DNA of 41,597 nucleotides from an uncultured Fibrobacter sp. (GTDB lineage: Bacteria > Fibrobacterota > Fibrobacteria > Fibrobacterales > Fibrobacteraceae), in the NCBI GenBank assembly GCA_946413655.1, contig CAMKLO010000028.1:1-41597 (forward strand). Direction: 5' to 3'. The first letter of the stretch is position 1. The number at the start of each line of letters is the position of its first letter. A program made the translations under genes and the position numbers. Positions 21,982 to 40,292 of the stretch are shown here, piece by piece. Below the pieces are notes generated by a model. It did no database searches, had not been told where the DNA came from, and worked only from the letters and a program-made list of their open reading frames with translations.

Positions 21982-22010
21982 TGAGACAATTTGTCACTTA
22001 TCGTGAGACA

Positions 22011-22042
22011 AAAAAAAGGAGCGTCAAAACGTTCCTTTTTTT
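22011..22042 (-). terminator. Terminator of the prophage late operon
   Basis: On the minus strand GGAACG and CGCTCC (one G-U pair) form a stem flanked by seven A before and seven T after, starting two bases beyond the stop codon of the last prophage gene. The symmetric A and T runs would let it work in both directions. Confidence 0.85.
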
Positions 22043-22044
22043 GA

Positions 22045-23118
22045 CTAGGCACTTGGATTCACCCAGCTACCATTCTGCAACTCAAAAAAGGAAATACCAG
22101 AAGCGGTTAAACATGTTTTTTTTGGTTTATGGCCGTATAAGGACACTTCCGAATCTGAAGGAATATGCAAAATAGTAATAACACCGACATTATCGTCAAT
22201 GATATTAAAAGAAGCATCGACATTTTTTCCAATCAAAATCACTTCTTTTCTGCCGCCTGCTAAATGTTTTTCATTCTGAATATACCCAGATCCATAATAA
22301 GTTTTAAGATAATCGGCGCCACCCACCGTTTTTTCGTTTAAAGTCATTACGCCGTTTTCTGTAGAATAACCGATAGATTTCTGACCCCCAGCCGAATTGG
22401 CTTTAAACGACGCGTGTCCGTTAGAGGCCCCCATTTCTGCATATCCTTCACTATTAGAATTTTCTGTTCCACAACTAAATGAAGTCGATTTCAAAGGAAT
22501 TTGATAAACGATTGAACCGACATTGTTCCCATGTTCAATTGCAACAACTAAATTACCATTACGATCAAATTGGGCTGAAATTTTATTTTCAGAAGTTCCT
22601 ATGCTAAAAATTTGTGCGGAGACCCGTCTATAATCGGCATCTTTACCTGCTCGAATCTTTCTGGTTTTGATATCAACCTCGCCAAGCTCGCTTCCAATAT
22701 TATTCGCGTTAATGACAACAATATCTCCGTCAACGGCTGTTTGCGTGACATAAGAATCTTCAATCGATGTTCCCGTCGCTTTAACTGTAATTGTACCATC
22801 TGTGTCTAGTTCTGGTATTACAGTTATCGCTCCGGTTGTATTGGTACAACGGACAATCAGTTCTCTTGGGTAAACAGGCGTTTCGCCACGCATGGCCTTA
22901 TGAACAAGAATAACGGCATTGTAAGGCCAATCCTCCAAATCAACTGATGTGGATTCGCCGAAGACATGGATTGTCTTACATTGTTGCTTTTCTGAATAAC
23001 CAGGCGGTAAAGGAAGATGGCCAACATCTTCGTCCGTTCCTTCATAGGTAGGGTTTTGCATGGCATTGTACCATTCGGGAGGAAGCGGGATTCCTGTAGT
23101 AATTTGTTGCTTTTGCAT
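22045..23118 (-). CDS. Uncharacterised protein downstream of the DGR reverse transcriptase
   Basis: I do not recognise this 357-residue protein. The first 50 residues are Pro-rich (GIPLPPEWYNAMQNP, LPLPPGYSEKQQ). The rest is predicted to be beta-rich with many Gly, Asn, Thr and Ser, including ITVIPELDTDGTITVKATGTS, and a final segment ending FFELQNGSWVNPSA. This composition fits a phage fibre or tail-tip protein. AGGAG six bases before the ATG and a gap of only 22 bases from the reverse transcriptase place it in the same transcript. It is the last gene of the prophage and has no variable repeat of its own that I can find. Confidence 0.7.
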   Translation of the reverse strand: MQKQQITTGIPLPPEWYNAMQNPTYEGTDEDVGHLPLPPGYSEKQQCKTIHVFGESTSVDLEDWPYNAVILVHKAMRGETPVYPRELIVRCTNTTGAITVIPELDTDGTITVKATGTSIEDSYVTQTAVDGDIVVINANNIGSELGEVDIKTRKIRAGKDADYRRVSAQIFSIGTSENKISAQFDRNGNLVVAIEHGNNVGSIVYQIPLKSTSFSCGTENSNSEGYAEMGASNGHASFKANSAGGQKSIGYSTENGVMTLNEKTVGGADYLKTYYGSGYIQNEKHLAGGRKEVILIGKNVDASFNIIDDNVGVITILHIPSDSEVSLYGHKPKKTCLTASGISFFELQNGSWVNPSA

Positions 23119-23140: not shown

Positions 23141-24337
23141 CTATATGGTCAGCTTGTATTGCCGTTTTAAAACATTCTTGAAGGAATATTTGGGGAGCAG
23201 GTTGAAACATTGCTTCTTTTCGTTCCACTCCATGTACTTGCCGAAGAGCTTCAATCCTAATTCCTTGTATTCCATCAGCTGCTTGTAATTGTTCTTTTTC
23301 TTGGCCATGCCAGTGTAGCAGTTGATACTGGCTAGCACACGGTTCACGTTGTGTTCATTGATATGCAACGATTTCATCTTTTTGATGGTCGCCACCCCCT
23401 TCTTGCAGGTATTCCTGTTCAAATAGCAGCGGTCGAACTTGCACATGGCACCCAGCACCATAGCCCCCTTGCTGTAGTGCTGGCAGTAGAATTTTCGTTC
23501 ATTGAACTTGACATTGATGGCGGCAAGACGCCTGCGAATTTCGGGCATAAGGCTCAAAAACTCGTTTTTTCGTGTCGTAACGACAAAAATGTCATCGACA
23601 AATACGACCATCTTGAAGCCAAGTTCCTCGTTCAGCCACCGTGTAATGTCATTGATATAGAGGCCCATAGAGTTCTGCCACACCAGGAATCCAATGGCTC
23701 CACCCACCCCTATAGGCTTGTTAAAAAGCGACTTTTCGGGTGCTATTGCAGCCCAGTTTTCCCGGGGGACGAACACATTGCAATTCCTGGCAGGATCGGC
23801 ATGAAGGGCCACGTCCATCATATAGATGAGGTCTTCCTTGTCGGGGCCGTTATAATAGCGTTCAATTAGGCTTTTTTGCTGTTTGAAAGCCACCTCAACA
23901 TCGGCATTCGGAAAATAGCCCTTGAAGTCCAGGTGTATAATCCAGGCGTCACGGGTATAGTTTGCGGATTCTTCCCGAACAAAGCGCCTGAACATTTCTA
24001 CGGCAGCGTGCTGACCCATTCCCTTGCGGTTGTTAAACGATATGGGCGAAAGGACTCTTTCGTATATCGGGCGAAGTCTCCAGTCTAAATAATGGTGGAC
24101 AATCCTCGTTTCCATGGATGTAGCAAATATTTCACGAGGTTTGGGAGAGAAAACGACGAAGGCATAGTTAGAATCTGCGGTAAGCTCGCGAGAATTGATT
24201 TTTCTCTGTAGGTTTACAAGGTTTGCTTCGAAATCCACTTCGAATTTCAACGTATCGGAAGAACGACGTTTGTTCTTCCTTGCCCTGTAATACACTTCTA
24301 TCAGATCCTTCAATTCTACCATAGATCTAACCGACAA
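23141..24337 (-). CDS. DGR-type reverse transcriptase
   Basis: Reverse-transcribes the template-repeat RNA with adenine-specific errors. The 398-residue length fits DGR enzymes. Seen: KPREIFATSMETRIVHHYL (residues 66-84, the finger motif strongly typical of DGR enzymes), the first catalytic Asp in HLDFKGYFP (Asp137), GAIGFLVWQNS (residues 213-223) where most DGR enzymes have GxxxSQ, and FVDD at 246-249 with the catalytic aspartate pair. A basic C-terminal thumb follows. The start is TTG at 24337 or ATG at 24322; neither has a clear ribosome site, so coupling or internal initiation within the template transcript is possible. It follows the template repeat by about 10-25 bases. Confidence 0.96.
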   Translation of the reverse strand: MSVRSMVELKDLIEVYYRARKNKRRSSDTLKFEVDFEANLVNLQRKINSRELTADSNYAFVVFSPKPREIFATSMETRIVHHYLDWRLRPIYERVLSPISFNNRKGMGQHAAVEMFRRFVREESANYTRDAWIIHLDFKGYFPNADVEVAFKQQKSLIERYYNGPDKEDLIYMMDVALHADPARNCNVFVPRENWAAIAPEKSLFNKPIGVGGAIGFLVWQNSMGLYINDITRWLNEELGFKMVVFVDDIFVVTTRKNEFLSLMPEIRRRLAAINVKFNERKFYCQHYSKGAMVLGAMCKFDRCYLNRNTCKKGVATIKKMKSLHINEHNVNRVLASINCYTGMAKKKNNYKQLMEYKELGLKLFGKYMEWNEKKQCFNLLPKYSFKNVLKRQYKLTI

Positions 24338-24346
24338 ACATTTTTC

Positions 24347-24463
24347 AAGTTCGCAACCGCCGACACCCGGAAGGCGTTATTGAAGTTGTTGTTGTTGAAA
24401 TTTCCATTGTTACTGAAATTCCACGCGTTATTATTGTTATTGCGAACCGCGAGCCAGCGCGAA
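24347..24463 (-). repeat. DGR template repeat (TR)
   Basis: Aligns without gaps to the variable repeat at a constant offset of 667 bases. On the coding (minus) strand it holds 34 adenines by my count, and would encode 16 Asn codons of AAC/AAT type in runs, the classic design that gives wide amino-acid variation without stops. It lies between the avd-like gene and the reverse transcriptase and is transcribed with them. The clean core is 24352-24463; the five bases 24347-24351 extend it if two further adenine differences are accepted. Confidence 0.96.
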
Positions 24464-24515
24464 AACAACAATAGCACGGCAAAACAACGTCAACAAGGCG
24501 ACTACTGAAGATGGA

Positions 24516-24956
24516 TTAAATGAATCCGTCGCCTCCTCTTGATTCTTGTTTGTCAGGTCCGAGGTCGTAGTTTGACACCTTGGACGCCTGGTTCTTCGAC
24601 ATGACGCTTTTACGCCATTTCATTATGCCTTCGTCGATTCTCTGAATATACGAAAAAATTTTTACCTGCTTCGCAGGTAGGAGGTATTTGAAGTCTATAG
24701 CAAGGCGCAAATACGCTTTTAGAACTTCAAAGTCGCAAATGAACAGATCGATTTCTTCCTTTCGACGATCTGACAATTTGTAAGCCATTCCCGCATGAGC
24801 AAGCATAGAAGTAGCCTTGTCGTGAATTTTGTCTCCAAGAACAACACGATCTTTTTTTGGAAAGTCGTATATTACGCTATGAACTGCTTTTATAAGCTCA
24901 TAAGTATCGACGTAAAGCCCAGTATCTTCCCATCTTTTATAAGACCTTCCTTTCAT
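24516..24956 (-). CDS. avd: DGR accessory protein, Avd-like four-helix bundle
   Basis: A 146-residue basic helical protein. Avd proteins form barrel-shaped pentamers that bind the reverse transcriptase and the template RNA and are needed for cDNA synthesis (established for the Bordetella phage system). Seen: four predicted helices, the FPKKDRVVLGDKIHDKA segment that resembles the conserved helix-2 region of Avd and related four-helix-bundle proteins, LRLAIDFKYLL in the third helix, and a C-terminal QVKIFSYIQRIDEGIMKWRK helix. The start is the ATG at 24956, preceded by GGAGG six bases upstream; longer frames through the variable repeat are not coding. The C-terminal 20 residues are disordered and Gly/Asp-rich. 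Position between target gene and template is typical. Confidence 0.9.
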   Translation of the reverse strand: MKGRSYKRWEDTGLYVDTYELIKAVHSVIYDFPKKDRVVLGDKIHDKATSMLAHAGMAYKLSDRRKEEIDLFICDFEVLKAYLRLAIDFKYLLPAKQVKIFSYIQRIDEGIMKWRKSVMSKNQASKVSNYDLGPDKQESRGGDGFI

Positions 24957-24968
24957 GTTTACCTCCAA

Positions 24969-24992
24969 GTGGCGGCTACAAAGAGCCGCCAC
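24969..24992 (-). other. DGR target hairpin downstream of the variable repeat
   Basis: GTGGCGGCT and AGCCGCCAC form a perfect 9-bp GC-rich stem with a six-base loop, 11 bases after the target gene's stop codon. In the Bordetella phage DGR a hairpin or cruciform at this place is required for efficient retrohoming. There is no T-run after it on the minus strand, so it is not a terminator. It ends two bases before the Avd Shine-Dalgarno sequence and might also affect Avd translation. Confidence 0.85.
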
Positions 24993-25003
24993 AAAGTTAT
25001 AAA

Positions 25004-27616
25004 TTATAAGGTTAAGAGCGCAACCGCCGACACCCGGAAGGCGGAATAGAAGTTGGAGTTGTTGAAATAACCATTGGAACTGAAAAACCACGCGCCATTA
25101 TTGCTATTGCGAACCGCGAGCCAGCGCGAATCTGTCAATCTTACAATAGATCCTCCCATAGCAGCAAGAGTCTTGTTGACTATGTCATAGCCGTTATAGG
25201 ACGTATGCCCGGACAATCCTGCTTTCATTTTGCTGATCATCTCGAAGGTATCCTCGATGCCCATCATGCGCCAATCTCCTTCATGTAGCCCCGGAGAATC
25301 GAAGTTTATGGATGCTGCATATTTGGCCGCAGGGAAAGTGTCTTTGGTTGTACCGTTTATATCCAGATGTTGTCTTCCTGCTAACGCAGCAGTCCATTCT
25401 TTTGCCTTACCATAAGAAGTTTTCATTCCATAATCAAGGCAAGGCCATTTCATCATGACGCACTTTTTGATATACTCTTCAAAAGTCTTATAGGCAGCTC
25501 TTAACGAAGCACAGTGAGTATCTTCTTCAAATTGCGTTTTCGAGACAATCTCATTTGGTGTTTCTGGCGTTATATCGCTAGTTAGTACAGCCGTAGATCC
25601 TGGATTGTTACTGTATTGTTCAATCAGACGTTCTGCATTAGCACCGGCTCTTATCCCATGAGAACCGCCTCTTCTAGCATAACCGACGGACTGGTTTACC
25701 GCAGGCAAATTATTTGCCATATTCATGCTTGAGGTTGCTCCAGACGAAATAATACTTCCAGCCTGTCTATAATCAACCATATTGTCTGCAATTACGAGAC
25801 AAGCAAGTTCTCCCTGATTATTGTACCCATATTGGCAATGCCAGTTATAATTCCAACCGGCACCAGCTGCGGTTCCTCCAGGATGCTCCGTAAGCCATGT
25901 ATTCAAAGCTTCACAGAAATCGCTGATATTGTCTGCGGAGTAGGTAAACGTTCCAATCGTTACATTCGCGTTACTTGAGTTTTTTTGAACGAATACAATA
26001 TCATGAGAGTTGCCGTCAAGGACCATGCCCGTTATTTCCCATATCCAGGCAGACGCAAACTTTTTAGTTGTATCACAGCTGTAATAGTGGATTAACACGT
26101 CATCGCCATTTCGTTTGATGACTACGCCAACGGGCACCATGCCTGTTGGAATTGTAGTTCCGTTTAGCAGGTCGCCTCCCTTGTAATATACCTTGTTACC
26201 GGAACCGTCAATATAGAGCGCATCACCTATCTGCGGGTCATCAGTGACAATCGGCGTTCCCTTGGACGTGAACTTCGTATCCAGTAATTTAAGAGTCTTT
26301 GTAGTACCGTCATAAATGCAGTTGCCGAGGTACGGTATATTCATCTGCACGCGGCTTACCGCATGAGGATTGTCGTTGTCCAGCTTATGCTCGTCAATAC
26401 TCTGCGATGATCCTGTGCTTATGGCATCAAGACTTTCCTTGACAAGCTTTTCGCTGGGATAATGTGTATTGTCTGGCGTTTCCTGCCAGGATGTAACTTT
26501 ATTGGATACATTTTCCTTACCGGATTCAACAGCCGTGAGCCTGGAACTCAGTTCCTGGTCTGCCGCAGAACGTGTGCTAGCTTCGCTTTGCAGCGCTGCG
26601 GCACTTGCCGTATTGTCGGTAACGATGCTGACTCCTGTCACTTTGCCATCAACTAACGTCACTTTGACTTGAACGTTCGTGCCGTTGGTAGAGGTCTTTT
26701 CGGAATCCAGGGCTTGGATTGCAGCCGTAATTGCATCATTACGATTAGCGACTTCCGTGGCGATAGCCGTCGCTATATCGGACGGAACAGCTTTACTATT
26801 CAGCTGGCCCTGAATATTGCCCGTTGAACCGTCAAGATTATTGAGTTCCGAAGTTGAAACAAATGCTCCGTCAAGAATGTTTAATTCAGAGGCTGTCGCC
26901 GTTACGCCAAGGTCGTTAAGACTGGTATTATGAGGATTTCCAGTCTGCTGAGAATGGTCATACGCCGTTTTTCCACGATCGCCTCTATATGCAGTTGAGG
27001 ATGTTTCACCAAGCGCAAGCGACTGCGATATTTCGGTGTATTGAGAGCCACTCCAGCGATAGCAGCGGTTCGAGGGAAGGTCAATATAAATCTTGCCTGA
27101 TTCAGCCGCAATAAGGATGGTATGGTTTTCATCGCTGTAGAAATTGCCGTTGTAGAGGTAGCCTTCAAGCGTATCGTCAACAAACGACGGAAGCTGTGTT
27201 GCAGGGACCTTGCCATCACCGCCGAGCGTTGCAACCCCATTTGCCACCCCTTTCTGCGAAAGCGGGACGTAACCTTGTGTAAGTTCATCCTTGGTCGCAT
27301 AATGGTTCTTTATGATATTGCCGTCGCTATCCTTAGTCGCCTTCGTTGCGGTTTCGGCATTTCCTGAAATATCAACTGGGAGTGTTTCGCCATCCTTAAC
27401 ATGTTCGGCACGCACTGCGTCATCGTCGATATGCGTACTCTTGACTTTTTTCAAGCCAATAGACAGAACGATATTGACATTGCTGCCGAAGTCTGTAGCA
27501 ATTTCCCCAGAAACATCGCCCGAAAGAGCAAGCTGAATCTGCTGGGCAAGTTTCTTGGCAAGCAAATTGGCGGTATCGCCATTCACATCTTCTAGTCTGC
27601 TTACTTCAAATTCCAT
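25004..27616 (-). CDS. DGR target: tail fibre with C-terminal variable C-type-lectin-like domain
   Basis: An 870-residue phage fibre, probably the receptor-binding protein. The N-terminal 100 residues (LAKKLAQQIQLALSGDVSG) fit attachment to the baseplate or another fibre. Residues 120-470 have fibre repeats: GVATLGGDGKVPATQLPSFVDD, heptad-rich coiled-coil stretches, ELNILDG/ELNNLDG repeats and NPHAVSRVQM. Residues about 560-870 form a DGR-type lectin/formylglycine-enzyme fold with GDWRMMGIEDTFEM and the terminal SRWLAVRN...FRVSAVA core carrying the variable positions. The ATG is preceded by AAGGAGGA. It follows the smaller fibre gene by 11 bases and is the first gene of the DGR cassette. Confidence 0.93.
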   Translation of the reverse strand: MEFEVSRLEDVNGDTANLLAKKLAQQIQLALSGDVSGEIATDFGSNVNIVLSIGLKKVKSTHIDDDAVRAEHVKDGETLPVDISGNAETATKATKDSDGNIIKNHYATKDELTQGYVPLSQKGVANGVATLGGDGKVPATQLPSFVDDTLEGYLYNGNFYSDENHTILIAAESGKIYIDLPSNRCYRWSGSQYTEISQSLALGETSSTAYRGDRGKTAYDHSQQTGNPHNTSLNDLGVTATASELNILDGAFVSTSELNNLDGSTGNIQGQLNSKAVPSDIATAIATEVANRNDAITAAIQALDSEKTSTNGTNVQVKVTLVDGKVTGVSIVTDNTASAAALQSEASTRSAADQELSSRLTAVESGKENVSNKVTSWQETPDNTHYPSEKLVKESLDAISTGSSQSIDEHKLDNDNPHAVSRVQMNIPYLGNCIYDGTTKTLKLLDTKFTSKGTPIVTDDPQIGDALYIDGSGNKVYYKGGDLLNGTTIPTGMVPVGVVIKRNGDDVLIHYYSCDTTKKFASAWIWEITGMVLDGNSHDIVFVQKNSSNANVTIGTFTYSADNISDFCEALNTWLTEHPGGTAAGAGWNYNWHCQYGYNNQGELACLVIADNMVDYRQAGSIISSGATSSMNMANNLPAVNQSVGYARRGGSHGIRAGANAERLIEQYSNNPGSTAVLTSDITPETPNEIVSKTQFEEDTHCASLRAAYKTFEEYIKKCVMMKWPCLDYGMKTSYGKAKEWTAALAGRQHLDINGTTKDTFPAAKYAASINFDSPGLHEGDWRMMGIEDTFEMISKMKAGLSGHTSYNGYDIVNKTLAAMGGSIVRLTDSRWLAVRNSNNGAWFFSSNGYFNNSNFYSAFRVSAVALLTL
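25014..25130 (-). repeat. DGR variable repeat (VR) at the 3' end of the target gene
   Basis: Encodes residues about 829-868 of the target protein. It differs from the template at 16 sites, all of which are A in the template coding strand. Nine Asn codons of the template become Ser (four), Tyr (two), Gly, Phe or Leu, plus one silent change in a Gly codon. The 3' part GTGTCGGCGGTTGCG is identical in both repeats and GC-rich, as expected for the initiation-of-mutagenic-homing site. Confidence 0.96.
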
Positions 27617-27627
27617 TGGAATCCTCC

Positions 27628-28254
27628 TTAAATGTTTGGCCTGTAAAATTTGAGGGTTTGATAGTTCTGGTAACGCATCCCGACACCATAGTTGTTGACC
27701 TTGGCCTTTGCATCGGCCTTGGTCTCGTAAGTGTCGTCAATAGCGTCGATTTGCTCCTGGAGAGCTTCGTCAGCCTGCTCCCTTGCCGCTGTTTCGTTGG
27801 CAAGCGCGGCGGTGACAACCTTGTTCTGCACCGGATTTTGCGACACGGAGGACAAGTAGGCGTCAACCCGGAAGTTGTTCATCATGTATTCGACATACGC
27901 GATAAAGCGGCTGTAATCGGCAGGAGTAAGTTTCAGGACGGTCTTGAACCTGACTCCATCCCACATGACTACAGTGTTCGCTGTAACAGTCAACACAGGG
28001 TCACCCGCAAGAGTACCGGAATCTTTCGCCGTATAGATGTAGCCCGGTTTACGATCGTCTGCATTTATGGCGGCACAAGTCATTTCTCCACGGAAATCAA
28101 TCTCAAAACCAGCATCGATAGCCCTGTCGATTGATTTTGCGAGACCTTCGGCGACAATTTCGTTAGCAGCGTCCGAACCGCCAGGATGCTCGATATCCTG
28201 AAAGTCCTTGAAGTTCTGCAATAGGTCTTTTTTAAGCTGTTCGTATCTAGTCAT
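27628..28254 (-). CDS. Phage tail fibre-associated structural protein
   Basis: A 208-residue protein between Mu gp48-like and the variable fibre. The middle (GEMTCAAINADDRKPGYIYTAKDSGTLAG...NTVVMWDGVRFKTV) is a beta-rich module common in phage fibre proteins, apparently a tip or connector domain. Residues 140-190 are a heptad-type helix (AANETAAREQADEALQEQIDAID) that may trimerise. It may be the link between the baseplate and the large fibre, or a short fibre itself. The start overlaps the previous gene by eight bases. No function can be assigned beyond position and composition. Confidence 0.7.
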   Translation of the reverse strand: MTRYEQLKKDLLQNFKDFQDIEHPGGSDAANEIVAEGLAKSIDRAIDAGFEIDFRGEMTCAAINADDRKPGYIYTAKDSGTLAGDPVLTVTANTVVMWDGVRFKTVLKLTPADYSRFIAYVEYMMNNFRVDAYLSSVSQNPVQNKVVTAALANETAAREQADEALQEQIDAIDDTYETKADAKAKVNNYGVGMRYQNYQTLKFYRPNI

Positions 28255-28765
28255 TGAACTCCCACCTTATCTCGGTAAACGGGATTGTCTGATTTTCAAG
28301 TTCCTTCACAAGCGTGGCGCAGTCCTCTCTGTTCGCATCCACATGAATCGTCCAGATATACTGTTCTTCGAGGTCATAGACAGGTTCGCCAACTCTCGAA
28401 AGTCCCGCCCTGAAAAGTTTATGCGGTTTGTCGATGGTTACGGTGAAGCCCATCTGTTCCGCGATAAACCTGTAATGTTTAGCCGCAATGCCCCACTGCC
28501 TGTTTATAGCCACCAGTAGCGTTTGGAGACGTTCTTCCTCGGTTCCGGTTCCCGGGAGACTGTAGGCGTCTTCCCAACGTGCGAGAGTGCCTGCAAGTGT
28601 ACATGTACTTGCAAACGATTCCTTATGTGCGTCGTCAGCCGCCTCGACAAGTCTGTCGAGTTCCATGGATACTGCATAATCTTCCGCGTCCATAGGGAGC
28701 GGCTTCAGGAGCGAAAGCGCCCTGAAATGCCTGGATTCGAACGGATTGACGGTTTCTTCGCTCAT
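28247..28765 (-). CDS. Mu gp48-like baseplate protein (DUF2313/YmfQ)
   Basis: A 172-residue baseplate wedge component joining baseplate to fibres. Family features seen: the N-terminal RALSLLKPLPM, then LVEAADDAHKESFASTCTLAGTLARWEDAYSLPG, GTEEERLQTLLVAINRQWG, and the YRFIAEQMGFTVTID segment. It directly follows the gp47 gene (one base) and overlaps the fibre gene. Length and position match Mu gene 48. Confidence 0.88.
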   Translation of the reverse strand: MSEETVNPFESRHFRALSLLKPLPMDAEDYAVSMELDRLVEAADDAHKESFASTCTLAGTLARWEDAYSLPGTGTEEERLQTLLVAINRQWGIAAKHYRFIAEQMGFTVTIDKPHKLFRAGLSRVGEPVYDLEEQYIWTIHVDANREDCATLVKELENQTIPFTEIRWEFND

Positions 28766-28766
28766 G

Positions 28767-29972
28767 TTACTCCACGCTCAATGTTCCAAGGATGAATTTT
28801 TCGTCGGTACTAGCCACGACCGTCGCGGCGCTACTCCACGCGCCACCGTTCTTCCGGGTAGTAACGCTGTCAGGCAACGCCCCATGCTTAATGGCGAATA
28901 CGGTAATCTGAGCCGTTACAATCATGTCGCCCGCCTTGAGCTCGGCGAAATACTTCTGCACATCGGAACGGAAACCGGAATCATCGAACGAGCTGGAACT
29001 ATCCAAGTGAACCTTAACGTCCACGGCTGTTTCGCGTTGAACCGCCACAAAGATTTCCTTCGGAGCGACGGGCCCTTCTTCTTCGCAGTGGTCGCGTACC
29101 GTATCAATCATCTTCATCGATAGAGTGACGGGTGCAAGGAGAATCCCGACTGTTCCTTTGCCATAGGGGTTCTTGGTACATTTGGCGAAAGTAGCCTTTT
29201 CCTGCGTACCGTCATCGGTGTAAAACTCCACTCCATGACACTTGATATCGTGCAAGGATGGAGTCATCCAGTTTTCAAGTGCATCGATAGAAGTGAGAGC
29301 AATCTTCCAGTATCTGGCGGAAACGGCATCGAAAGAGTCCATTGCCCACCCGGAAGCGCCAAGAATCGACCGGAGAGCCCATGTCGTAGAATCTTCGGAA
29401 GAATACACCCTAAATTCGCCACCACGAATAGTCGTGAAGCCGATTCCCACACCCGAAATCTCTTTGTCTGTGCCGAAATCGACAATTACAGATTCCCCAA
29501 CGTTATAAGAACTTACCGAAAAGGCTATAGAGTCCTTGTTTTTCGGATCACAAAACGCATCGGCATCGATTGCAATCTGATCGGAAGAAACCATCGACGG
29601 AAGAAGCTCAACTACAGAGCCTGAGCTTACAGCTTCAAGAGCCCATCTTTCGTAGTCGGTAATCTTGCCACCGGAAGGAGGCCTGCGTAGATAAGAAAGT
29701 ACAAACGAAAGCAGTTCTGCACCAGTAAGTCCCTCGACATCCTTTCCGCGTTCCGTGGCGAACTTTTCGAGAGATTCCTTCGACATCGTGGAAGGGAAAA
29801 TTTGGTCCACAGTCCAGTCGAGCTGCTTGTAAACACCCCAAATGGCAGATGCCGCCACCGAAAAGCGGATATAAGTCTCTGTTCCCTGCGTAATAGTCCC
29901 GATCAGGGCAGGATTCATGTTCTCCGCATCGACAATCATGCGTTGGAGAATGGTATCAATACTAATGGCCAT
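28767..29972 (-). CDS. Mu gp47-like baseplate J protein with inserted discoidin-like domain
   Basis: The baseplate wedge arm of the contractile tail. The N-terminal 115 residues (TILQRMIVDAENMNP, GVYKQLDWTVDQIFPST, LRRPPSGGKITDYERWALEAV) and the C-terminal 130 (NPYGKGTVGILL, VRDHCEEEGPVAPKEIFV) are the standard J fold. Between residues about 118 and 265 there is an extra beta-sandwich with VIVDFGTDKEISGVGI, FRVYSSEDSTTWALR and SARYWKIALTS, which is the pattern of F5/8 type C (discoidin) carbohydrate-binding domains. I start at the ATG at 29972 because GGAGGT lies five bases before it; a frame from 29996 is longer by eight residues. It overlaps gp46 by 11 bases. Confidence 0.87.
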   Translation of the reverse strand: MAISIDTILQRMIVDAENMNPALIGTITQGTETYIRFSVAASAIWGVYKQLDWTVDQIFPSTMSKESLEKFATERGKDVEGLTGAELLSFVLSYLRRPPSGGKITDYERWALEAVSSGSVVELLPSMVSSDQIAIDADAFCDPKNKDSIAFSVSSYNVGESVIVDFGTDKEISGVGIGFTTIRGGEFRVYSSEDSTTWALRSILGASGWAMDSFDAVSARYWKIALTSIDALENWMTPSLHDIKCHGVEFYTDDGTQEKATFAKCTKNPYGKGTVGILLAPVTLSMKMIDTVRDHCEEEGPVAPKEIFVAVQRETAVDVKVHLDSSSSFDDSGFRSDVQKYFAELKAGDMIVTAQITVFAIKHGALPDSVTTRKNGGAWSSAATVVASTDEKFILGTLSVE

Positions 29973-30279
29973 CGGAGACCTCCACAAATCTTTCAAAGGT
30001 TACGGTTTCGCCCACATAAAGGATTGCTTCGACATGGAGAAGGAGCCGGTCGTCGCGCTGGTATGTGGCCGTCGCGGTCACGCTGCGCACGTGCTTGTAG
30101 TCAATAAGCCACTGCAACGCTTCGATAGCGAACTGTTCGGTCTTGCGGCGAGTCTTTTCGGATGCAGGAGCATTGCGAAGCTCGCGGAACCGGTGGCCAA
30201 ATTCCGGGCGTTTGAAAAAGCTGCCCTTGGCAACAGTAAGCGACATTTCAATTTCTTCTTTGACATTCTCAAAAGTCAT
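29962..30279 (-). CDS. Mu gp46-like baseplate protein (T4 gp25-type)
   Basis: A short protein of about 105 residues belonging to the GP46/gp25-like baseplate wedge group that starts sheath assembly. The segment LTVAKGSFFKRPEFGHRFRELRNAP is the family core, followed by a long helix (TRRKTEQFAIEALQWLID) and beta strands. I start at the ATG of MTFENVKEE (30279), two bases after the upstream stop; the longer frame overlaps gp45 with no support. Confidence 0.82.
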   Translation of the reverse strand: MTFENVKEEIEMSLTVAKGSFFKRPEFGHRFRELRNAPASEKTRRKTEQFAIEALQWLIDYKHVRSVTATATYQRDDRLLLHVEAILYVGETVTFERFVEVSDGH

Positions 30280-30280
30280 A

Positions 30281-30778
30281 CTATTCCACCGGAGGAGGAG
30301 GGTCAGGAACAATGGGCGGCGTTCCAGGAGAAGACGGGCCGACAGCGGTGCCGTGTACCTGGGGCTTGAGGATTGCACGCAAATTTCTAATGGATCCGAC
30401 TTCTGCAGGGTTGTCGGTATTATCCCAGATGTCCTTGCTCACGCGAAGGTCGCCATCGATATCCACACCTTTCGGAGCCTTAATTTCAATGGTTCCGTTC
30501 TTCTTGAAAATGATATACTGCTTGTCATCACGATATACGGCTGTTTCCCCTTCTTCTACGGCGGGGCGGTCCTTACCGTCGCTTGCCACGCCGACGATGA
30601 CGTTTCCGAACTCCAGGAAGAGAATGCGCGACCCGCTCGGCGGAATGGATATAAAGCCATACTGCTGCATCAGCTGACGACCTTCCACGTCGCGACCGTT
30701 CGCCTTAGCCGACACGCTGCGGAGCTTGCCTGCGATATCCTTGCAGCTCGAAATAATGCTCGTAAAGAATTTCATCAT
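30281..30778 (-). CDS. Mu gp45-like baseplate spike protein
   Basis: The central puncturing spike below the tail tube. Residues 40-100 hold the OB-fold part (QQYGFISIPPSGSRILFLEF). Residues about 95-130 are beta-helix-like strands (GTIEIKAPKGVDIDGDLRVSKDIWDN), and the C-terminus is Pro-rich (GTPPIVPDPPPPVE). Length 165 residues, slightly shorter than in Mu. The start overlaps the gpP-like stop by four bases. Confidence 0.82.
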   Translation of the reverse strand: MMKFFTSIISSCKDIAGKLRSVSAKANGRDVEGRQLMQQYGFISIPPSGSRILFLEFGNVIVGVASDGKDRPAVEEGETAVYRDDKQYIIFKKNGTIEIKAPKGVDIDGDLRVSKDIWDNTDNPAEVGSIRNLRAILKPQVHGTAVGPSSPGTPPIVPDPPPPVE

Positions 30779-31776
30779 AAAGCACCTCCCGGCTGGAGCT
30801 CAAGACGCGTGCGCTTACCGTTCAGCCTGTCAAGAGTGAATGTCACCGACTTGATGAGGTAAGAGTCTTTAGCCCCATTGTATTCATCTCGCACATCGAC
30901 AAAGCGATTGATTTCCCAATTGTTGGAGTTCTGAGAATGACCCTTGACTGTATATTCAAGGCGGATTGAACTGGCCTTTTCTACAGCCATCTGAAGTTCA
31001 GCGGTCTTCTTTGCAGGGCCCTCGTTTTCGTTCCAGTTCACGACAAGAGGCTTTGCAAACGGCATCTGGTCGTTCTTGACGGTCGCCATCACATACTTGA
31101 TGTCGTTGTCGTCCTGACTTTCGCCCATCACGCGGACTTCGCTATGGACGCCTTCGATAGTCTTTGTCACGGAACCCTCGATGTAGTCCATTTCGGATCC
31201 GTCGCCCTTGGCATGGATAGTAAACAGCGGTTTGCCTCGAACAAGCGGTTTGTCGAAACAGAACTTGCCGTCTGGAGTAGCCCAAAACAAGTATCCTTGC
31301 GAGTTGGCGGCACGCTTGATGACCTCGAAAACAGTATCTCCCGGGGACAGTTGAACGAATTTTCTGCTGACATTGGCCTTTTTCGCCCCGGAATAATACT
31401 CGAAATCCTTCTTTCCGATGAATGGGAGCCCACGCACCAGCTTTTCGGCAAGCGCGTCGAGCTTCGTAGGAAGCGTCGAAAACTTTGTTACGCAGGAATC
31501 GACCATAACGGACGCCACAGAACGACCTTCAAAGGAAAGCTTGGGGCCGCTTCTAGAGAGTTCCCGCTTGACGGTATCGATGATTCCCGCCATCACGACA
31601 TTTCTGTTAACGAATATGGTGCATGCGTCACCTGCTGAAATGTTATACTTGGAGTCCGCCTCGAATGAGAAGGAGCCTTCGGGCGCGAACAGGTCCTGCG
31701 TGATGCTGTAGTTCACGAACTTGTCCATCCGGGAGCCGTTCACGGCAACGATAACTTCATCCTTGTCATTTATCAT
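30775..31776 (-). CDS. Mu gpP-like baseplate hub protein
   Basis: The hub of the contractile tail (gpD/T4 gp27 type). Family marks are the N-terminal VNGSRMDKFVNYSITQDLFAP, then GDACTIFVNRNVVMAGIIDTVKRELS, LSFEGRSVASVMVDSC, and a C-terminal TPDGKFCFDKP domain. 333 residues, as usual. It overlaps gpN by 11 bases and gp45 by four. Confidence 0.87.
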   Translation of the reverse strand: MINDKDEVIVAVNGSRMDKFVNYSITQDLFAPEGSFSFEADSKYNISAGDACTIFVNRNVVMAGIIDTVKRELSRSGPKLSFEGRSVASVMVDSCVTKFSTLPTKLDALAEKLVRGLPFIGKKDFEYYSGAKKANVSRKFVQLSPGDTVFEVIKRAANSQGYLFWATPDGKFCFDKPLVRGKPLFTIHAKGDGSEMDYIEGSVTKTIEGVHSEVRVMGESQDDNDIKYVMATVKNDQMPFAKPLVVNWNENEGPAKKTAELQMAVEKASSIRLEYTVKGHSQNSNNWEINRFVDVRDEYNGAKDSYLIKSVTFTLDRLNGKRTRLELQPGGAL

Positions 31777-33028
31777 AGACTAGCACCTCGCCGTTCATAA
31801 AAGTGGGATTCTTGACCGCGTTCAATGCGCAAAGACGCTCCGCCGCCTTGTAGCCCAGGCCGTTGTCCAGGCATACACGATGGAGAGGCGTTTCATGCTG
31901 CAACACGACCTTCTTCGTGGTCATGTATTCCATCTTGATTCGCAGAACGGCTTCGCTAAGGGTTGCCGCCTGTTTCTTGAGCCGTTCCGGGCAAATGGCA
32001 ACAGGGAGAACCGTATTGATGAACTCGCGGACCGTGGCCACGCTATCTTCGAGTTCGGCAGGTGTGACTATATATGCAGGCTTCGTCTCGGCAATTTCCC
32101 TTCCTTCAGCATCGTCGGAAACAACGCTTTCGGCAGCGATGGATTCTCCCATCTTTCTTTCATCATCGCTGATCTGCTTCGCAGTCTCGTTTGCAAGCGT
32201 AGATGCAGCAAGAGTCGCGTATGCCGCATATACAGGAGAGCCGGCAAGACTTACAAGCATATCGGACATATTCGCTGCAAGAACCGCCGTGGAACTCTTA
32301 GATTTCGTCGCCCGGCGAGCAAGACCCGAGAACGAGTCGCAGCATCCCTGCAAACTCTCGGTCAACTTGCCCGAAAGTGTGCCCATGTAGTCTATCGTCG
32401 TATTTATCGCATCGATAGGGGCCTTTACAGTAGTGATAACGCCCTGGATTTTCGCCATCGCAGACTGGACGCCCGATGCAAATGCACGCGCGGCATCGCC
32501 AAGGGAGCCCCACACATCGAGCAAGGACCAGTCAGAACCCTCGACATCAGGGACTCCCGCCTTCTGCATTTCATCGGCTATGGCCGTTTGCACATCGGCG
32601 TTTACTTCCTTCGCCTCTTCGTAGGTCACATCCGTCGGGTCGGCAAAAGCCTGCGTTTCTTCCTGGAGATTCGCTATTTCGAAGTCGAACTGAAACTCCG
32701 CATATTTCCTGCGCTTGTCAGAGGCAAAGGAAACATTTTTCGGATATCCATAAAGAATCGTATCGTGGTCGGGGTGATACAGCTCTACAGGTTCCGGGAA
32801 ATACGAACGGAACCAGTTTCGGAGCGCACTGTAGTTTTTATCGTAGTCTTCGTTAGTGATGATGCACGAAAACCTGAAACCTTCGGGATTTACGCCCATG
32901 TCTTCAAGCTCCGCGCCATTCTTGTACGGATAGGTTGTTTCGGCCATGGCGTGGCTGATCTCGTCGCTGATGTTCGTCAGCTTCAAGTTCCATGGGCCCA
33001 GCGTGCATTCTCTAGCTTCTTCGGCCAT
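31766..33028 (-). CDS. Mu gpN-like tail/DNA circularization protein
   Basis: A 420-residue tail protein whose Mu homologue is called the DNA circularization protein. The N-terminal domain (residues 1-125) is typical: NISDEISHAMAETTYPYKNGAELEDMG, then FRFSCIITNEDY, YFPEPVELYHPDHDTILYGYP. The rest is helical, with Ala-rich stretches. It starts one base after the tape measure stop. The contact with the tape measure is inferred. Confidence 0.85.
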   Translation of the reverse strand: MAEEARECTLGPWNLKLTNISDEISHAMAETTYPYKNGAELEDMGVNPEGFRFSCIITNEDYDKNYSALRNWFRSYFPEPVELYHPDHDTILYGYPKNVSFASDKRRKYAEFQFDFEIANLQEETQAFADPTDVTYEEAKEVNADVQTAIADEMQKAGVPDVEGSDWSLLDVWGSLGDAARAFASGVQSAMAKIQGVITTVKAPIDAINTTIDYMGTLSGKLTESLQGCCDSFSGLARRATKSKSSTAVLAANMSDMLVSLAGSPVYAAYATLAASTLANETAKQISDDERKMGESIAAESVVSDDAEGREIAETKPAYIVTPAELEDSVATVREFINTVLPVAICPERLKKQAATLSEAVLRIKMEYMTTKKVVLQHETPLHRVCLDNGLGYKAAERLCALNAVKNPTFMNGEVLVYDK

Positions 33029-34993
33029 TTATCTACCCATCCCTGGTGTATTCTTCACCCTGATGTTTGCAGGCTTGCCGCCGTCGCTTTGTGCGGTAAA
33101 GCGGTTGTTAGACGCATCGAGATTGATGACTATGTTCGGAGCCACAGTCAAATTTTTCATGTATTCTTGAGCGGACACACGTTGTGCACCGCTTGCAATG
33201 TCGCGTTTCATCAGTTCGCGAGAAACGTTCAGCTGAGCATAGAGTTTGTCGAGCTTCTTCTGTGACGGCAAAAAGCTCGTTTCTTCTTCGTTGATGGCTT
33301 TCATCGTTTCGTCATAGCGTTTAGCGTGGACGTTCTTGCCATACCGTTCTTCAAAACTTTTGGCGTTCGAGTCGATAGTATTGGCTGCGATTTCGCGAGA
33401 ATTAGCGACAACTTGTCGCCATTCAATGAAGGCTTGACCGAAGTTGTAAATTTGACCCATAGCCCATGATGTAGCGGCCCCCATTACAGACATCGCTAGA
33501 GGCGAGTTCCCCAAACGATTCAGCCCTGCACGGGCATTTGAAAGACCTTGACGGAATCGCCCCACTTCCTTGGTAGTCGTTTCCATCGCGGTTGCAGTTT
33601 TCTGGGTGGTAATCGGGAAATCATCGTCCATGTAGTTGGCGTTACCCATGCCTCCACCCATGTTGACGACGAATACTTTCTGGACACCGCCCGCAGCCGC
33701 TTCAATAGCATCAGCGGTCGCGTTGCCGTTTTTCCTGGACCAGAAGCCCTTCAAGTCTCCGACAAGGCCGCCAAAAGACTTGACAAACTCGCCAACTTTG
33801 ACAGCCACTAGAGCACCAGCGGCTACCGTCATAGCCTTAAATCCAGCCGTAACAAGACCTTGATGTTCTCCAAGGTATTTAAGAGCGTCTGAAAGCTGAT
33901 TTACAGGCCCTGCAAGGTTCGTGTCTGCAAACTTTAAAGCGACGGCCTTCATCTTGTTCACGTTCGTGTTGAAATCGTCAGATGTTTTTTGAAAACGCTT
34001 GTCGAGTTCCTCGGTGTTGTTCATGCCGTCTTGACCGCTCTTGGTAATGGCATCGAGCGTTTGCCAACCATTCTTGTATTCAGCCATTACAGGGGTGAGA
34101 GCCTTCAAAGCCGATGCTCCGAACATCGGCGATATCTTCTTGATGTTGCCGTCAGTCTTCTCCATCAACTGGCGCATGATGTCGTCGAAATCGTTTAGAT
34201 TCCCGTCTTTATCGAATACACGCACTCCAATCTTTTTAAGGTCTTTCGCCTTGCCGATAAGTTCATTGAACAAAGACGAAACAGATGTAGTGAGTTCAGC
34301 TTCGCTTTTGATGGAAGTGTTCATCACCTGCAAGTAAGCCCCGAAATTCGCGAACTGGTCTTGCGACTTGATGCCAAACGACGAAGCCGCCGCAAGCAAA
34401 GCTTTGCCTTCGGCAGCGAACTTTTGCAGAGTGTATGAGCCTTGGTCGCCCTGAATGATGAGGGAGTTGAACGAACTTGCAATTTGTTCCGCACCCCAAC
34501 CCATTGACGTTTTCATCGAAGCCGCGACGGCGGCAAGTTCATCGACGCTGGCCCCGGAAGCCTTAGCGGCCTTAGCAAGCGTTTCTCCCATCTGTTCAGA
34601 AAAGTCAAAGTCGCCTGTAACTTCGCCAATGCGGGAAATGCCTGCCAAAATGGTATCTGCATCCACCCCGGTCTCGACCGCCATTTTATGCAGCGAATCG
34701 CGGAACACCTTCGTGTCCGCGTCGCTTTTCTTTGCGGCAAAGCCGTAATACATGAGCGATTCGGAGAGATCGCCCACGTTCTTGATGGCCATACCAAGAC
34801 CACCGCCAAGAACCAACGAATTGAATGGCGTAACCATGCGGTCAGCAAGCCCCTTGAGGGAACTTCCGACACGGGCAATGCTAGCACGGGCACGAGAGCC
34901 AAAGCTGTCAATGGCGGCAGAAGATTGTTTCAAGCCGTTCTGAAGCTTAGTCGGGTCTGCGCCAATCCGCAATGTAACGCTATTGTCAGCCAA
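33029..34993 (-). CDS. Tail tape measure protein
   Basis: Sets tail length and is threaded through the tube. 654 residues; at about 1.5 angstrom per residue this predicts a tail near 100 nm. Seen: VTLRIGADPTKLQNGLKQSSAAIDSFGSRARA at the N-terminus (tape-measure opening), a long helical region with LAKAAKASGASVDELAAVAASMKTSMGWGAEQIASSFNSL, hydrophobic helices near residues 340-420, and a helical C-terminus. The start is TTG at 34993, with AAAGGA ten bases upstream; the chaperone frameshift frame runs through it and stops at 34986. Confidence 0.88.
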   Translation of the reverse strand: MADNSVTLRIGADPTKLQNGLKQSSAAIDSFGSRARASIARVGSSLKGLADRMVTPFNSLVLGGGLGMAIKNVGDLSESLMYYGFAAKKSDADTKVFRDSLHKMAVETGVDADTILAGISRIGEVTGDFDFSEQMGETLAKAAKASGASVDELAAVAASMKTSMGWGAEQIASSFNSLIIQGDQGSYTLQKFAAEGKALLAAASSFGIKSQDQFANFGAYLQVMNTSIKSEAELTTSVSSLFNELIGKAKDLKKIGVRVFDKDGNLNDFDDIMRQLMEKTDGNIKKISPMFGASALKALTPVMAEYKNGWQTLDAITKSGQDGMNNTEELDKRFQKTSDDFNTNVNKMKAVALKFADTNLAGPVNQLSDALKYLGEHQGLVTAGFKAMTVAAGALVAVKVGEFVKSFGGLVGDLKGFWSRKNGNATADAIEAAAGGVQKVFVVNMGGGMGNANYMDDDFPITTQKTATAMETTTKEVGRFRQGLSNARAGLNRLGNSPLAMSVMGAATSWAMGQIYNFGQAFIEWRQVVANSREIAANTIDSNAKSFEERYGKNVHAKRYDETMKAINEEETSFLPSQKKLDKLYAQLNVSRELMKRDIASGAQRVSAQEYMKNLTVAPNIVINLDASNNRFTAQSDGGKPANIRVKNTPGMGR

Positions 34994-35626
34994 TGCTCTG
35001 CCATCCTTTATCGTTATCGACCAAATAGCCCTTCATCGCAAAGACGAGGAGCCATTGGGCGTCGTTTAGTTCTCTTGCGGGGCAACCAAAATACGCAGAA
35101 GCTTCCAGGCTACAGGCAAGCTTAAGACTTTCGAGCGAATCTGGTCCGGTTTTTTTTTGAGAGTTTCCTTGAGCTGTTCAAATTCTTCGTCCGTGAGCTT
35201 TTCCAGGTTCGGGTCGTTCTCGTCGGAAAAAGCATTGTAGGCGTCGCACAAGGCTTTCAGTTCATCATTGGTGCACAAGGTTCGCATGTGCTCGGCACTG
35301 CTGAAAATCGGCTTACCCGTTTCAGGGTCAGAGAACGCCCGCCACATACCGTGTACAGCTTCCTGTTCGCGGTAATCCGCCAAGTTCTGCATCCCGATTT
35401 CAATGCCGTCACGCTTGAACTCTTGCTGGTTATCGACTTTCGCCTTGCGGGCTTCGGAAACCGTCAAGAGTCTCATGCGGACCGTCACGCCCGGGACACC
35501 GGGCCATTCGATATCCTTGAATACATCGTGCGAAGCCTTGATTTGGTCGATAATCGCAGATTCAGCGGCATCGGCCTTTTCAGCTGCTTCGTGGGCGGCT
35601 TGAATTTTATCAGAAAGTCCGCTCAT
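34986..35626 (-). CDS. Tail assembly chaperone, predicted -1 frameshift product
   Basis: A longer form of the chaperone made by slipping back one base at the A9 run (35150-35158). It would have 159 residues in common with the short form and then 55 new residues (starting TGPDSLESL, including CPARELNDAQWLLVFAMKG) before the TGA at 34988-34986, which overlaps the tape measure start. The new frame has no stop over its whole 165 bases. Tail phages commonly make two such chaperone forms (lambda G/GT; a -2 shift is reported for Mu). The new frame is open and spans exactly the gap to the tape measure gene, so it is likely real. Confidence 0.75.
35066..35626 (-). CDS. Tail assembly chaperone, unshifted form (Mu gp41-like)
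   Basis: A 186-residue protein located between tube and tape measure genes, where chaperones that bind the tape measure are always found. Seen: a helical N-terminus (DKIQAAHEAAEKADAAESAII), a beta part with VRMRLLTVSEARKAK, and an acidic helical end (FEQLKETLKKKPDQ). It is expressed at high level from a start two bases after the tube gene. The poly-A run encoding the three lysines is the predicted slippery site. Confidence 0.85.
   Translation of the reverse strand: MSGLSDKIQAAHEAAEKADAAESAIIDQIKASHDVFKDIEWPGVPGVTVRMRLLTVSEARKAKVDNQQEFKRDGIEIGMQNLADYREQEAVHGMWRAFSDPETGKPIFSSAEHMRTLCTNDELKALCDAYNAFSDENDPNLEKLTDEEFEQLKETLKKKPDQIRSKVLSLPVAWKLLRILVAPQEN
35150..35158 (-). other. Slippery A9 site for -1 frameshifting
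   Basis: Nine adenines read in frame as AAA AAA AAA, so that the heptamer A AAA AAA is correctly phased for a -1 slip. Downstream is a continuous open -1 frame. Confidence 0.75.
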
Positions 35627-35628
35627 AG

Positions 35629-35979
35629 CTATTTCCTGTCAGCTGCGGAAAAGACTAGCTGGGATTCCTTGGCCGTCTTGCCATCAAGTTCATTCGGAGT
35701 GAACTTGAGAAGTTTAACGCCAGTGTAAGTCACCTTGTTGCCACCTACATAGTTGACGACAAGCGTCATTACCTTGCCCTTTTCCTTGAGCCAGTCGCGT
35801 TCAGCACCCGACTTCGGGAGGTATGCAAGCTCAAAGCCATAGGCCGGGGGAACATCGACCGTATCTTGACCATAGAAATGGTCAACAGTCTGGGCGACTT
35901 CAACTTCATTTTCCTTGAATTTCGAAAAGTCAGTGATCTGTTCACCGTCAAGGATGAGGGAAAGAGACGAAATTCTCAT
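35629..35979 (-). CDS. Tail tube protein (Mu gpM-like)
   Basis: A 116-residue tube protein following the sheath gene by ten bases. Beta-rich, with DGEQITDFSKFKENEVEVAQTVDHFYG and VNYVGGNKVTYTGVKLLKFTPNELDGK as in Mu gpM. It forms the inner tube through which DNA passes. The order sheath, tube, chaperone, tape measure is diagnostic for contractile tails. Confidence 0.85.
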   Translation of the reverse strand: MRISSLSLILDGEQITDFSKFKENEVEVAQTVDHFYGQDTVDVPPAYGFELAYLPKSGAERDWLKEKGKVMTLVVNYVGGNKVTYTGVKLLKFTPNELDGKTAKESQLVFSAADRK

Positions 35980-35989
35980 GTTTCACTCC

Positions 35990-37480
35990 TTAAAGATAAA
36001 GGTCAATGGTGCTGTAGATCTGGTTGAGTCCAGGCACAACAGGAGCAGGGATTTGGCAAAGCATACGACCCGGAACATTCTTAGATTCCTGCGTGATGAA
36101 CTGGTCTGCGTAATCGTCGATGTAACGCAGAATCTGTTCATCTTCGAGGTCGGAAGCGACTGCCTTGTTATCTTCGTTCAAAGCATCCGCAAGGAATGCG
36201 TGAACGACCTTGTTTTTGTACTTGGATTTATGCATCGCAAGGATGCAGTCGCGGAAGTAGTCAAGCGAAGCGATGACCCCGGTATCGTTGAGCTTGTTCC
36301 ATTCAGCACCGCTATTCTTGGTGCGCGTGGTAACGGCACGCACGATGCAGAGCATGCTATCTTCTTCCACCAGCGGAATTACACCACCGTTAAGAAGCAT
36401 ATCCTGTTCATCGCCGCTCCACTTGTCTTCAACATCAGGGATAGCAAGCCCCGGAATGGCGACACCGTTCATCGGAATATTCGGCTTAGAATTGCTGGCA
36501 AAAATTGCACCGAGACCCGCCGCAATTTCCCACACGGTCGCATTGATCTTGTTCTTGACAGCCGCAATGTGCAAGCGTTCGTAGTTCTTGGCGATTGCGA
36601 CAGAAGCGGCTGAACTTGCCGTTGCAGAGACCATTGCACAGATTGCACGCTGACCACGCTGTTCGAGCGGTGCGGCAGCGGAATCAAGATGTTCCCTGAG
36701 GTAGCCGAGGTTAGAGGCATCGTTTACCGGAGAAACGATAATGTGATAGCGTTCCGGGAATGCGGCGGCAAGGGCCGTCTGCAAATTCACGGTACCCACG
36801 CCCGGCGTGGTTGTGACAGAACCGACCGTAATTCCGTCAGCTTCTGAACTGACTGACACATTCAAGCCACCCGCCACAGCGGATACATAAGCACCCTTGC
36901 ACTTTGCGGTAAGCACCACCTCGCCGGTTGCCACATTCGATGTTTCATGGGTGGTTTGGTCCGTGACTTCTTCCGTGGTAGCGACTGCGGTAAACGGAGC
37001 ATCCGGGGTGTTGTTGATGACTTCCGCAAGATTGACTGCAACCTTCCCGCAATCATCAGGATCAACTGCAACCGTGTCCAAATTGTCTGTTTTTACGCCA
37101 ACAGCATATTCAACGCCGTTGCAAATGACAGACACCTTACCCGGCTTGGTCGCTGTACCCGCAAAGGTAAACGCCCAAGTTGCCGCAGAGCCAGTCACTT
37201 CGGCATGGCGAAGCAGCGTAATCTGTGCATACTTCCAAGCCTTCTTAGCAGCCTTGTACATCTGCATAAGTACGGAACCCGCACCAGCGAGAGAAATCGC
37301 TTCCTGTTCGCTGGAAACAGCCGTGGGCTTGTTTACGGCGAGGCTACCGGCAGACGACTTGTCACCGATAAGCAACACCTTCTGAATGTTGGCAGGGAGC
37401 CCGTTCGGGCCCGCATAGTAGTTGAATTTCGTATAGGAACCAGGACGTTTGGTTTCCGAAATGTTATTGCTCAGGTTCAT
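35990..37480 (-). CDS. Contractile tail sheath protein (Mu gpL-like)
   Basis: A 496-residue sheath subunit. N-terminal ETKRPGSYTKFNYYAGPNGLPANIQKVLLIGDK is the family opening. The domain near FPERYHIIVSPVNDASNLGYLREHLDSAA is the core, and the C-terminal part contains NSGAEWNKLNDTGVIASLDYFRDC, with the final strand used for inter-subunit linkage. A Val/Thr-rich protrusion (residues about 100-230) is likely the outer, variable domain. The start overlaps gp37 by 17 bases. Confidence 0.9.
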   Translation of the reverse strand: MNLSNNISETKRPGSYTKFNYYAGPNGLPANIQKVLLIGDKSSAGSLAVNKPTAVSSEQEAISLAGAGSVLMQMYKAAKKAWKYAQITLLRHAEVTGSAATWAFTFAGTATKPGKVSVICNGVEYAVGVKTDNLDTVAVDPDDCGKVAVNLAEVINNTPDAPFTAVATTEEVTDQTTHETSNVATGEVVLTAKCKGAYVSAVAGGLNVSVSSEADGITVGSVTTTPGVGTVNLQTALAAAFPERYHIIVSPVNDASNLGYLREHLDSAAAPLEQRGQRAICAMVSATASSAASVAIAKNYERLHIAAVKNKINATVWEIAAGLGAIFASNSKPNIPMNGVAIPGLAIPDVEDKWSGDEQDMLLNGGVIPLVEEDSMLCIVRAVTTRTKNSGAEWNKLNDTGVIASLDYFRDCILAMHKSKYKNKVVHAFLADALNEDNKAVASDLEDEQILRYIDDYADQFITQESKNVPGRMLCQIPAPVVPGLNQIYSTIDLYL

Positions 37481-38467: not shown

Positions 38468-38473
38468 TCAACC

Positions 38474-39550: not shown

Positions 39551-39570
39551 GTTTTTGTCCTTGTTAAAGT

Positions 39571-40272: not shown

Positions 40273-40292
40273 TGGATTTTCCTTTTTATTGT

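Follow-up and report, generated by a model that had tools for sequence, protein, structure and literature searches.

The stretch of DNA analyzed here (41,597 nt; hereafter the window) is the whole of contig CAMKLO010000028.1 (C28) in an assembly from an uncultured Fibrobacter sp. (GCA_946413655.1, genome G000; 3.7 Mb in 184 contigs, 88% complete), and it carries a complete diversity-generating retroelement (DGR) in a Mu-like prophage. It is quite likely that this DGR rewrites the C-terminus of a predicted tail protein at the positions where its template holds adenine, and that the template RNA is held by a structure drawn partly from the coding sequences of avd and of the reverse transcriptase (RT). 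The parts are encoded on the minus strand between 23141 and 27616, in the order target gene, variable repeat (VR), hairpin, avd, template repeat (TR) and RT gene (Table 1). A first-pass annotation made from the letters alone had proposed a complete DGR in canonical order on one strand, and every part was found at or very near the place it had given. By analogy with Bordetella phage BPP-1, the template RNA would be copied by the RT together with Avd, errors would arise opposite A during copying, and the mutated complementary DNA (cDNA) would replace the VR. The virus therefore likely keeps altering the protein with which it would hold on to its host.

Variation of the target gene at template adenines

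Comparison of the TR and VR of the window, which are 117 nt each and 86% identical, revealed that all 16 mismatches fall on TR adenines (hypergeometric p = 1.1e-10, with A at 34 of the 117 TR positions). The VR holds A at none of these 16 sites, the two copies agree at every non-A position, and, read in the frame of the target, 33 of the 34 TR adenines are at first or second codon positions. The close relatives of the window RT are found on six IMG/VR contigs and one genome contig, with RT identities of 83-97%; their repeats were located by plain similarity to the window TR, and both repeats were found in six of the seven. In the window and these six relatives, 115 of 115 TR/VR mismatches lie on TR adenines. 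The TRs vary among loci, and at non-A positions each VR follows the TR of its own locus, the pattern expected from repeated homing. At the related locus L005, the VR (about 7203-7320) has one nucleotide more than the TR, owing to a frameshift or an assembly error.

Near its 3′ end the VR reads CT (25017-25018) where the TR reads AA, and this difference is identical in all seven close loci with an in-register VR. The same AA/CT difference was found in 29 of 31 loci whose repeats were traced to the end, the exceptions being L076 and L077, and the TR of L051 reads CA at this position. The difference looks like a fixed mark of the IMH*/IMH type (IMH, initiation of mutagenic homing) and not like mutagenesis; when it is counted as fixed, 14 variable TR/VR differences are left in the window copy.

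A wider scan, in which repeats were chosen by an adenine criterion, covered 41 loci, with L071 excluded because its contig does not include the upstream part. It yielded 36 usable TR/VR pairs, together with one spurious pair (L068) and four loci without a pair (L043, L072, L073 and L081); the repeats of L081 were later located on its other strand. Over the 36 loci 672 of 675 mismatches are on TR adenines, a count that is partly circular because of the way the repeats were chosen, and the 115 of 115 given above is the count relied on.

Seven pairs of phages share an identical TR, and in six of them the VRs differ, with 141 of the 142 differences on TR adenines; five of the seven pairs lie outside the close group and use repeats chosen by the adenine criterion, which favors such a result. 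The window TR is exactly shared by L044 (the same contig as L006), and all 18 VR differences between the two are on TR adenines. The corresponding counts are 20 of 20 for L041/L042 (99.6% identical on the RT side and 98.7% on the target side), 28 of 28 for L046/L048, 19 of 20 for L053/L055 (flanks 99.9 and 100% identical), 24 of 24 for L052/L054, and 32 of 32 for L058/L059, in which both flanks are 100% identical. The VRs of the seventh pair, L058/L060, are identical. Two further pairs have differing TRs, L046/L047 with 13 and L066/L070 with 2 VR differences outside TR adenines, and these non-A differences sit where the TRs differ too. These near-identical pairs are clean natural evidence of recent targeted change in phages of fiber-degrading gut bacteria, and they display, as natural variation, the diversity at template-A sites against a constant TR that had been predicted for this cassette.

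The target gene is located at the end of the tail operon. Its product had no match in Pfam, in the PDB sequence search or in a profile comparison with the BPP-1 protein Mtd. An AlphaFold2 model of residues 540-870 was poor (mean predicted local distance difference test score, pLDDT, 53.9) and was replaced by one of residues 692-870 built with more diverse relatives (pLDDT 78.5), from which, by fold comparison, a C-type-lectin-like fold of the C-terminal domain is provisionally predicted. Such a variable lectin-like tip would bind host surfaces, and host-range switching by way of a hypervariable tail tip may be the outcome.

Reverse transcriptase clade and the RNA around the template

The RT matches PF00078 above the cutoff, and a sequence search of the PDB at E 0.001 matched one entry, 8ub7, a 328-residue RT of the same length as BPP-1 Brt. 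In the phylogenetic tree, the query falls in sets made up of DGR rows only, separate from group II intron RTs (99/99), with the RT of Bacteroides phage F2 joining the query clade at 100/99; the single retron row sits unplaced on a long branch, two changes of the DGR label are required on this tree, the group II set includes one unannotated RT (L100), and the Fibrobacter rows L014 and L088 are very long branches, probably read in wrong frames. The earlier assignment to DGR-type RTs, as opposed to group II introns, was thereby upheld, and the NCBIfam model for group II intron RTs gave 42.4 bits against a cutoff of 300. PADLOC returned only a generic RT model (7e-16) plus weaker ones. Eight of nine clade rows carry W in place of S in motif 4 (IGxxxWQ, against IGxxxSQ in the other DGR RTs of the set), and all 25 aligned RTs have W215 and FVDD. 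As for the start codon, the alternative TTG at 24337 is less likely than the ATG at 24322, which all eight close loci retain, whereas the TTG is out of frame with the ATG in L002-L004.

Among 80 genomes of the genus, the clade occurs in four (G000, G038, G047 and G114), with one such RT in the window assembly. It was also observed on viral contigs of 215,310 (L057) and 213,231 bases (L058) and is not limited to Mu-sized phages. Another DGR clade is represented by four RTs in G053, and one RT of G053 and one of G035 have two in-frame TGA codons, pointing to decay or to a recoded phage (loci L013, L086 and L092 in the two genomes).

The TR of the window ends 24 nt before the RT start. The distance is 13-29 nt in all 31 fully traced clade loci, L054, L057, L062, L065 and L075 having been left out of this range since they were not traced to the repeat end, so that the loci have no non-coding spacer of about 140 nt in the style of BPP-1. 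In phage F2 the TR ends 38 nt before its RT, and short gaps are therefore not unique to the clade.

Directly 5′ of the TR lies an inner hairpin with a CAUNN loop, nested in an outer stem. A 5-bp Watson-Crick stem with this loop was found 5′ of the TR in 38 of 38 loci, compared with 161 of 7600 random windows. The hairpin alignment (A6) was built from these 38 loci, with the near-duplicates L042, L048, L054, L055, L059 and L060 removed and L029 added; its rows were picked through the loop (CATNN in DNA), so that pairing is partly selected, and the random-window control measures that selection. Every cell of the inner stem is paired across its 30 distinct rows, with 52 two-sided changes and no one-sided change. 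Covariation of the whole structure is 0.604; shuffled alignments reach 0.199, and slid controls do not exceed 0.183. Double changes occur in 10 pairs, which is no excess over the 9.5 obtained by shuffling. Pair 12-53 is G-U in 20 of the 30 rows and would be an A-C mismatch on the opposite strand, making the sense-strand RNA the likelier form. We consider the CAUNN hairpin firmly supported by comparative sequence as a real covarying RNA element.

A model of the motif, R1, was run over 368 kb from 41 sources and matched 15 times, in every case on the RT strand of DGR loci that belong to the clade or to phages F2 and F4. L068, L072 and L073 are among these matches although they were not in the model, and in a further search R1 also matched the F2 relatives L118 and L119, likewise not in the model. 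At the 20 RT loci from outside the clade, among them BPP-1, R1 had no match. In the 80 Fibrobacter genomes it matched exactly the four that carry the RT clade; since these four are in the model, this is a test of specificity only. An Rfam scan of the window gave no family at the gathering score; the hairpin has no Rfam family, and passages retrieved from the one literature library searched gave no description of it. Two loci of another Fibrobacter DGR clade, L016 and L017, have a 191-nt repeat match by simple extension that reaches close to the RT, and neither the stem-loop scan nor R1 found the hairpin there.

The coding sequences on both sides of the TR are constrained at synonymous sites. 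Among the eight close loci, synonymous differences were fewer in avd codons 89-146 than in codons 2-88 in all 28 pairs (176/1328 vs 817/1875 in total), and amino-acid change was higher in the 89-146 part in 12 of them. In RT codons 2-62, synonymous change was lower in 24 of 28 pairs (0.25 vs 0.45 overall), including pairs with equal amino-acid change. In six other phage genes used as controls, the first-62/middle synonymous ratio was 0.74-0.96 compared with 0.56 for the RT, and the last-58/middle ratio was about 0.8-1.04, except in the VR-bearing target (0.60), compared with about 0.30 for avd. Covariation is clear 5′ of the TR (7 pairs vs 3.0 in shuffles) and moderate 3′ of it (4 vs 1.9), and the 200-nt window from the TR end was the strongest fold of ten in 11 of 15 loci. 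From these comparisons we infer an RNA scaffold that would be embedded in both genes, at the avd end and the RT start, its RT-embedded part being likely only. Two observations weigh against such a scaffold: synonymous suppression in the RT was not seen in groups C and D or between groups, and the structures of groups A and B have no exact pair in common. The pairs of group A form in 60% of group B cells, against 32-44% when slid.

Taken further, the transcript of this large gut-phage DGR lineage would have a dual function, in which the family of hairpins at the avd stop closes off the template on its 5′ side, and some 60 codons at the start of the RT gene form the 3′ scaffold that is a separate spacer in BPP-1; we regard this reading as evenly balanced between being right and wrong. 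The CAUNN hairpin is predicted to define the 5′ boundary of the DGR RNA or to help hold the RT-Avd complex, and the start of the RT gene would take over the job of the BPP-1 spacer. If this is true, one stretch of RNA both encodes the RT and loads it, in a natural DGR design without a separate spacer. The compact, lineage-marking hairpin, through R1, is a search handle, and it is a place to study how RT and Avd recognize their RNA.

An unlikely alternative is an ordinary DGR whose hairpin serves in gene control (translation, transcript processing or avd-RT coupling) and is not part of a template scaffold. The motif does straddle the avd stop codon in the window, and its outer stem opens with AGGAGG, which we take to approximate the ribosome-binding site consensus. 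However, the RT start comes only about 170 nt later, past the TR, the distance to the avd stop differs among loci, and the motif tracks the RT lineage, in the genomes as well as in its absence from the 20 RT loci outside the clade, all of which weighs against this alternative.

The low synonymous change could also have arisen because phages recently exchanged the TR region, or because the ends of genes are commonly constrained; we judge this improbable as a substitute for RNA structure. Amino-acid change is likewise reduced in some pairs (0.02 vs 0.10 in the RT of the window and L079), the suppression is absent at deeper divergence, and the control genes show a mild 5′ effect. Against this, the RTs of the window and L045 have equal amino-acid change in both parts (0.16/0.16) with synonymous change of 0.31 vs 0.58, the avd end combines uniformly lower synonymous change with amino-acid change that is often higher, compensatory changes occur within the avd part, and the ratios of both genes fall below the controls.

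The Mu-like prophage

Mu-like late genes, from a head protease to a gp48-like baseplate gene and including a tail sheath, run toward the DGR. The right end of the window shares exactly 55 nt with the start of contig C10, on which lie genes for terminase, Mu portal, Mu F, virion morphogenesis, a Mu-type transposase, an AAA ATPase and GemA. Candidate prophage ends, TGAGACAA at window position 21982 and TTGTCTCA ending at C10 position 19303, give a length of about 38.9 kb. In G014, G004 and G043 an empty site was found, with the host flanks some 30-60 nt apart and no phage between them. The Mu genes on C10, the overlap and the empty site in three genomes bear out the Mu-like prophage of the first-pass annotation, and the Fibrobacter-type host it had suggested agrees with the genus, Fibrobacter.

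A 5-bp duplication is expected at Mu ends; it was sought at the candidate ends and not seen (TTTAA vs TTTCT). Together with the source being a single draft assembly and the extra nucleotide in the VR of L005, this could suggest that the cassette is an inactive remnant, which is very improbable given that the window RT, avd and target are all open, that TR and VR match at all non-A positions, and that every VR difference from L044 is on a template adenine.

Table 1. Positions of the DGR parts and neighboring prophage features in the window
Feature	Positions	Strand	Basis
DGR target gene, 870 aa, predicted tail protein	25004..27616	-	ORF (open reading frame); PHROG minor tail protein match in the N-terminal part
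VR, final 39 target codons	25014..25130	-	Repeat comparison with TR
Hairpin directly after VR, 9-bp stem	24969..24992	-	Folding, z -6.2
avd accessory protein gene, 146 aa	24516..24956	-	PF22296 (bAvd) above cutoff; phrog_3206 "Avd protein of DGR"
Covarying CAUNN hairpin motif 5′ of TR, across the avd stop codon	24495..24535	-	Covariation, model matches
Outer stem of CAUNN motif	24528-24535 with 24495-24502	-	
Inner stem of CAUNN motif	24523-24527 with 24513-24517	-	Loop CAUUU 24518-24522
Structured 5′ flank of TR (avd 3′ part and avd-TR gap)	24479..24679	-	Consensus fold, pair counts, synonymous constraint in avd codons 89-146
TR, 117 nt, 34 adenines	24347..24463	-	Repeat comparison
Predicted structured 3′ flank of TR, mostly within RT codons 1-58	24149..24346	-	Folding, constraint
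DGR reverse transcriptase, 393 aa from ATG 24322	23141..24322	-	Motifs IGFLVWQ, FVDD
Gene without family match, after RT; last prophage gene on this side	22045..23118	-	ORF, family searches
Mu-like late operon: head protease, scaffold, major head, sheath, tape measure, baseplate	27628..41549	-	Family matches
Candidate prophage end, starts TGAGACAA, repeated 22 nt inward	21982..22011	.	End search

The hairpin after the VR folds in six of six loci (z -4.1 to -6.2). The avd product falls under the cutoff of the NCBIfam Avd model (37.3 vs 80 bits). The gene that follows the RT has 48% identity in G038, where the RT has 91% and the target 83%; it is fast-changing and perhaps encodes a second surface protein. 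Within the baseplate J protein (28767-29996, minus strand) there is a weak internal match to F5/8 type C (E 2.3e-5, below the cutoff), possibly a sugar-binding insert in the baseplate. The late genes are split beyond 41549, toward the end of the window contig, with those for terminase, portal, F and morphogenesis divergent from the protease, head and tail genes in C10 of G000 and in G038, where this divergent layout lies on a single contig (L034). Beside the prophage end, at about 21748-21965, lies an interspersed repeat, pieces of which occur, among the matches listed, in many places of Fibrobacter genomes, G000 included.

Comparison with known retroelements

The cassette of BPP-1 (mtd, avd, TR, brt) resembles that of the window in the order of its parts, in the TR lying between avd and the RT, in mismatches confined to adenines and in the hairpin after the VR. 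The two differ in the annotated distance from TR to RT gene (144 nt in BPP-1 vs 24 nt) and in RT motifs (IGSLTSQ and YMDD vs IGFLVWQ and FVDD), and neither the stem-loop scan nor R1 found a CAUNN hairpin upstream of the BPP-1 TR. According to passages of PMC12875486, the spacer between TR and brt in BPP-1 folds, recruits bRT-Avd and primes cDNA synthesis, and a motif in the end of avd stops the cDNA.

A DGR on a Mu-like phage has already been described in the Bacteroides Hankyphage. As described there (PMC6199706), Hankyphage is like the window phage in having a Mu-like transposase, a prophage state, 117-bp repeats mismatched at adenines and a small avd-like gene, and its VR forms the C-terminal end of a large protein with a C-type lectin domain. 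It is a siphovirus, whereas the window has a sheath gene, its target exceeds 2,200 residues compared with 870, and its host belongs to another phylum; the likeness is drawn from its published description. The closest named RTs are those of Bacteroides uniformis phages, F2 at 34.4% identity and F4 and Bacuni_F1 at 31.8%. Phages F2 and F4 share the CAUNN hairpin with the window and differ from it in having an annotated recombinase, and the RT motifs of F2 (IGNLFSQ, YVDD) also differ.

A survey, as excerpted, counted 948 non-redundant DGRs (PMC6642488). For DGRs and Fibrobacter together, the passages retrieved give only a Pfam domain, a phylum group or a rumen-phage RT possibly of DGR origin, and those on DGR RNA structure contain no description outside BPP-1. 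The cassette itself is a further member of the known DGR type, and what is new is the RNA architecture around the template.

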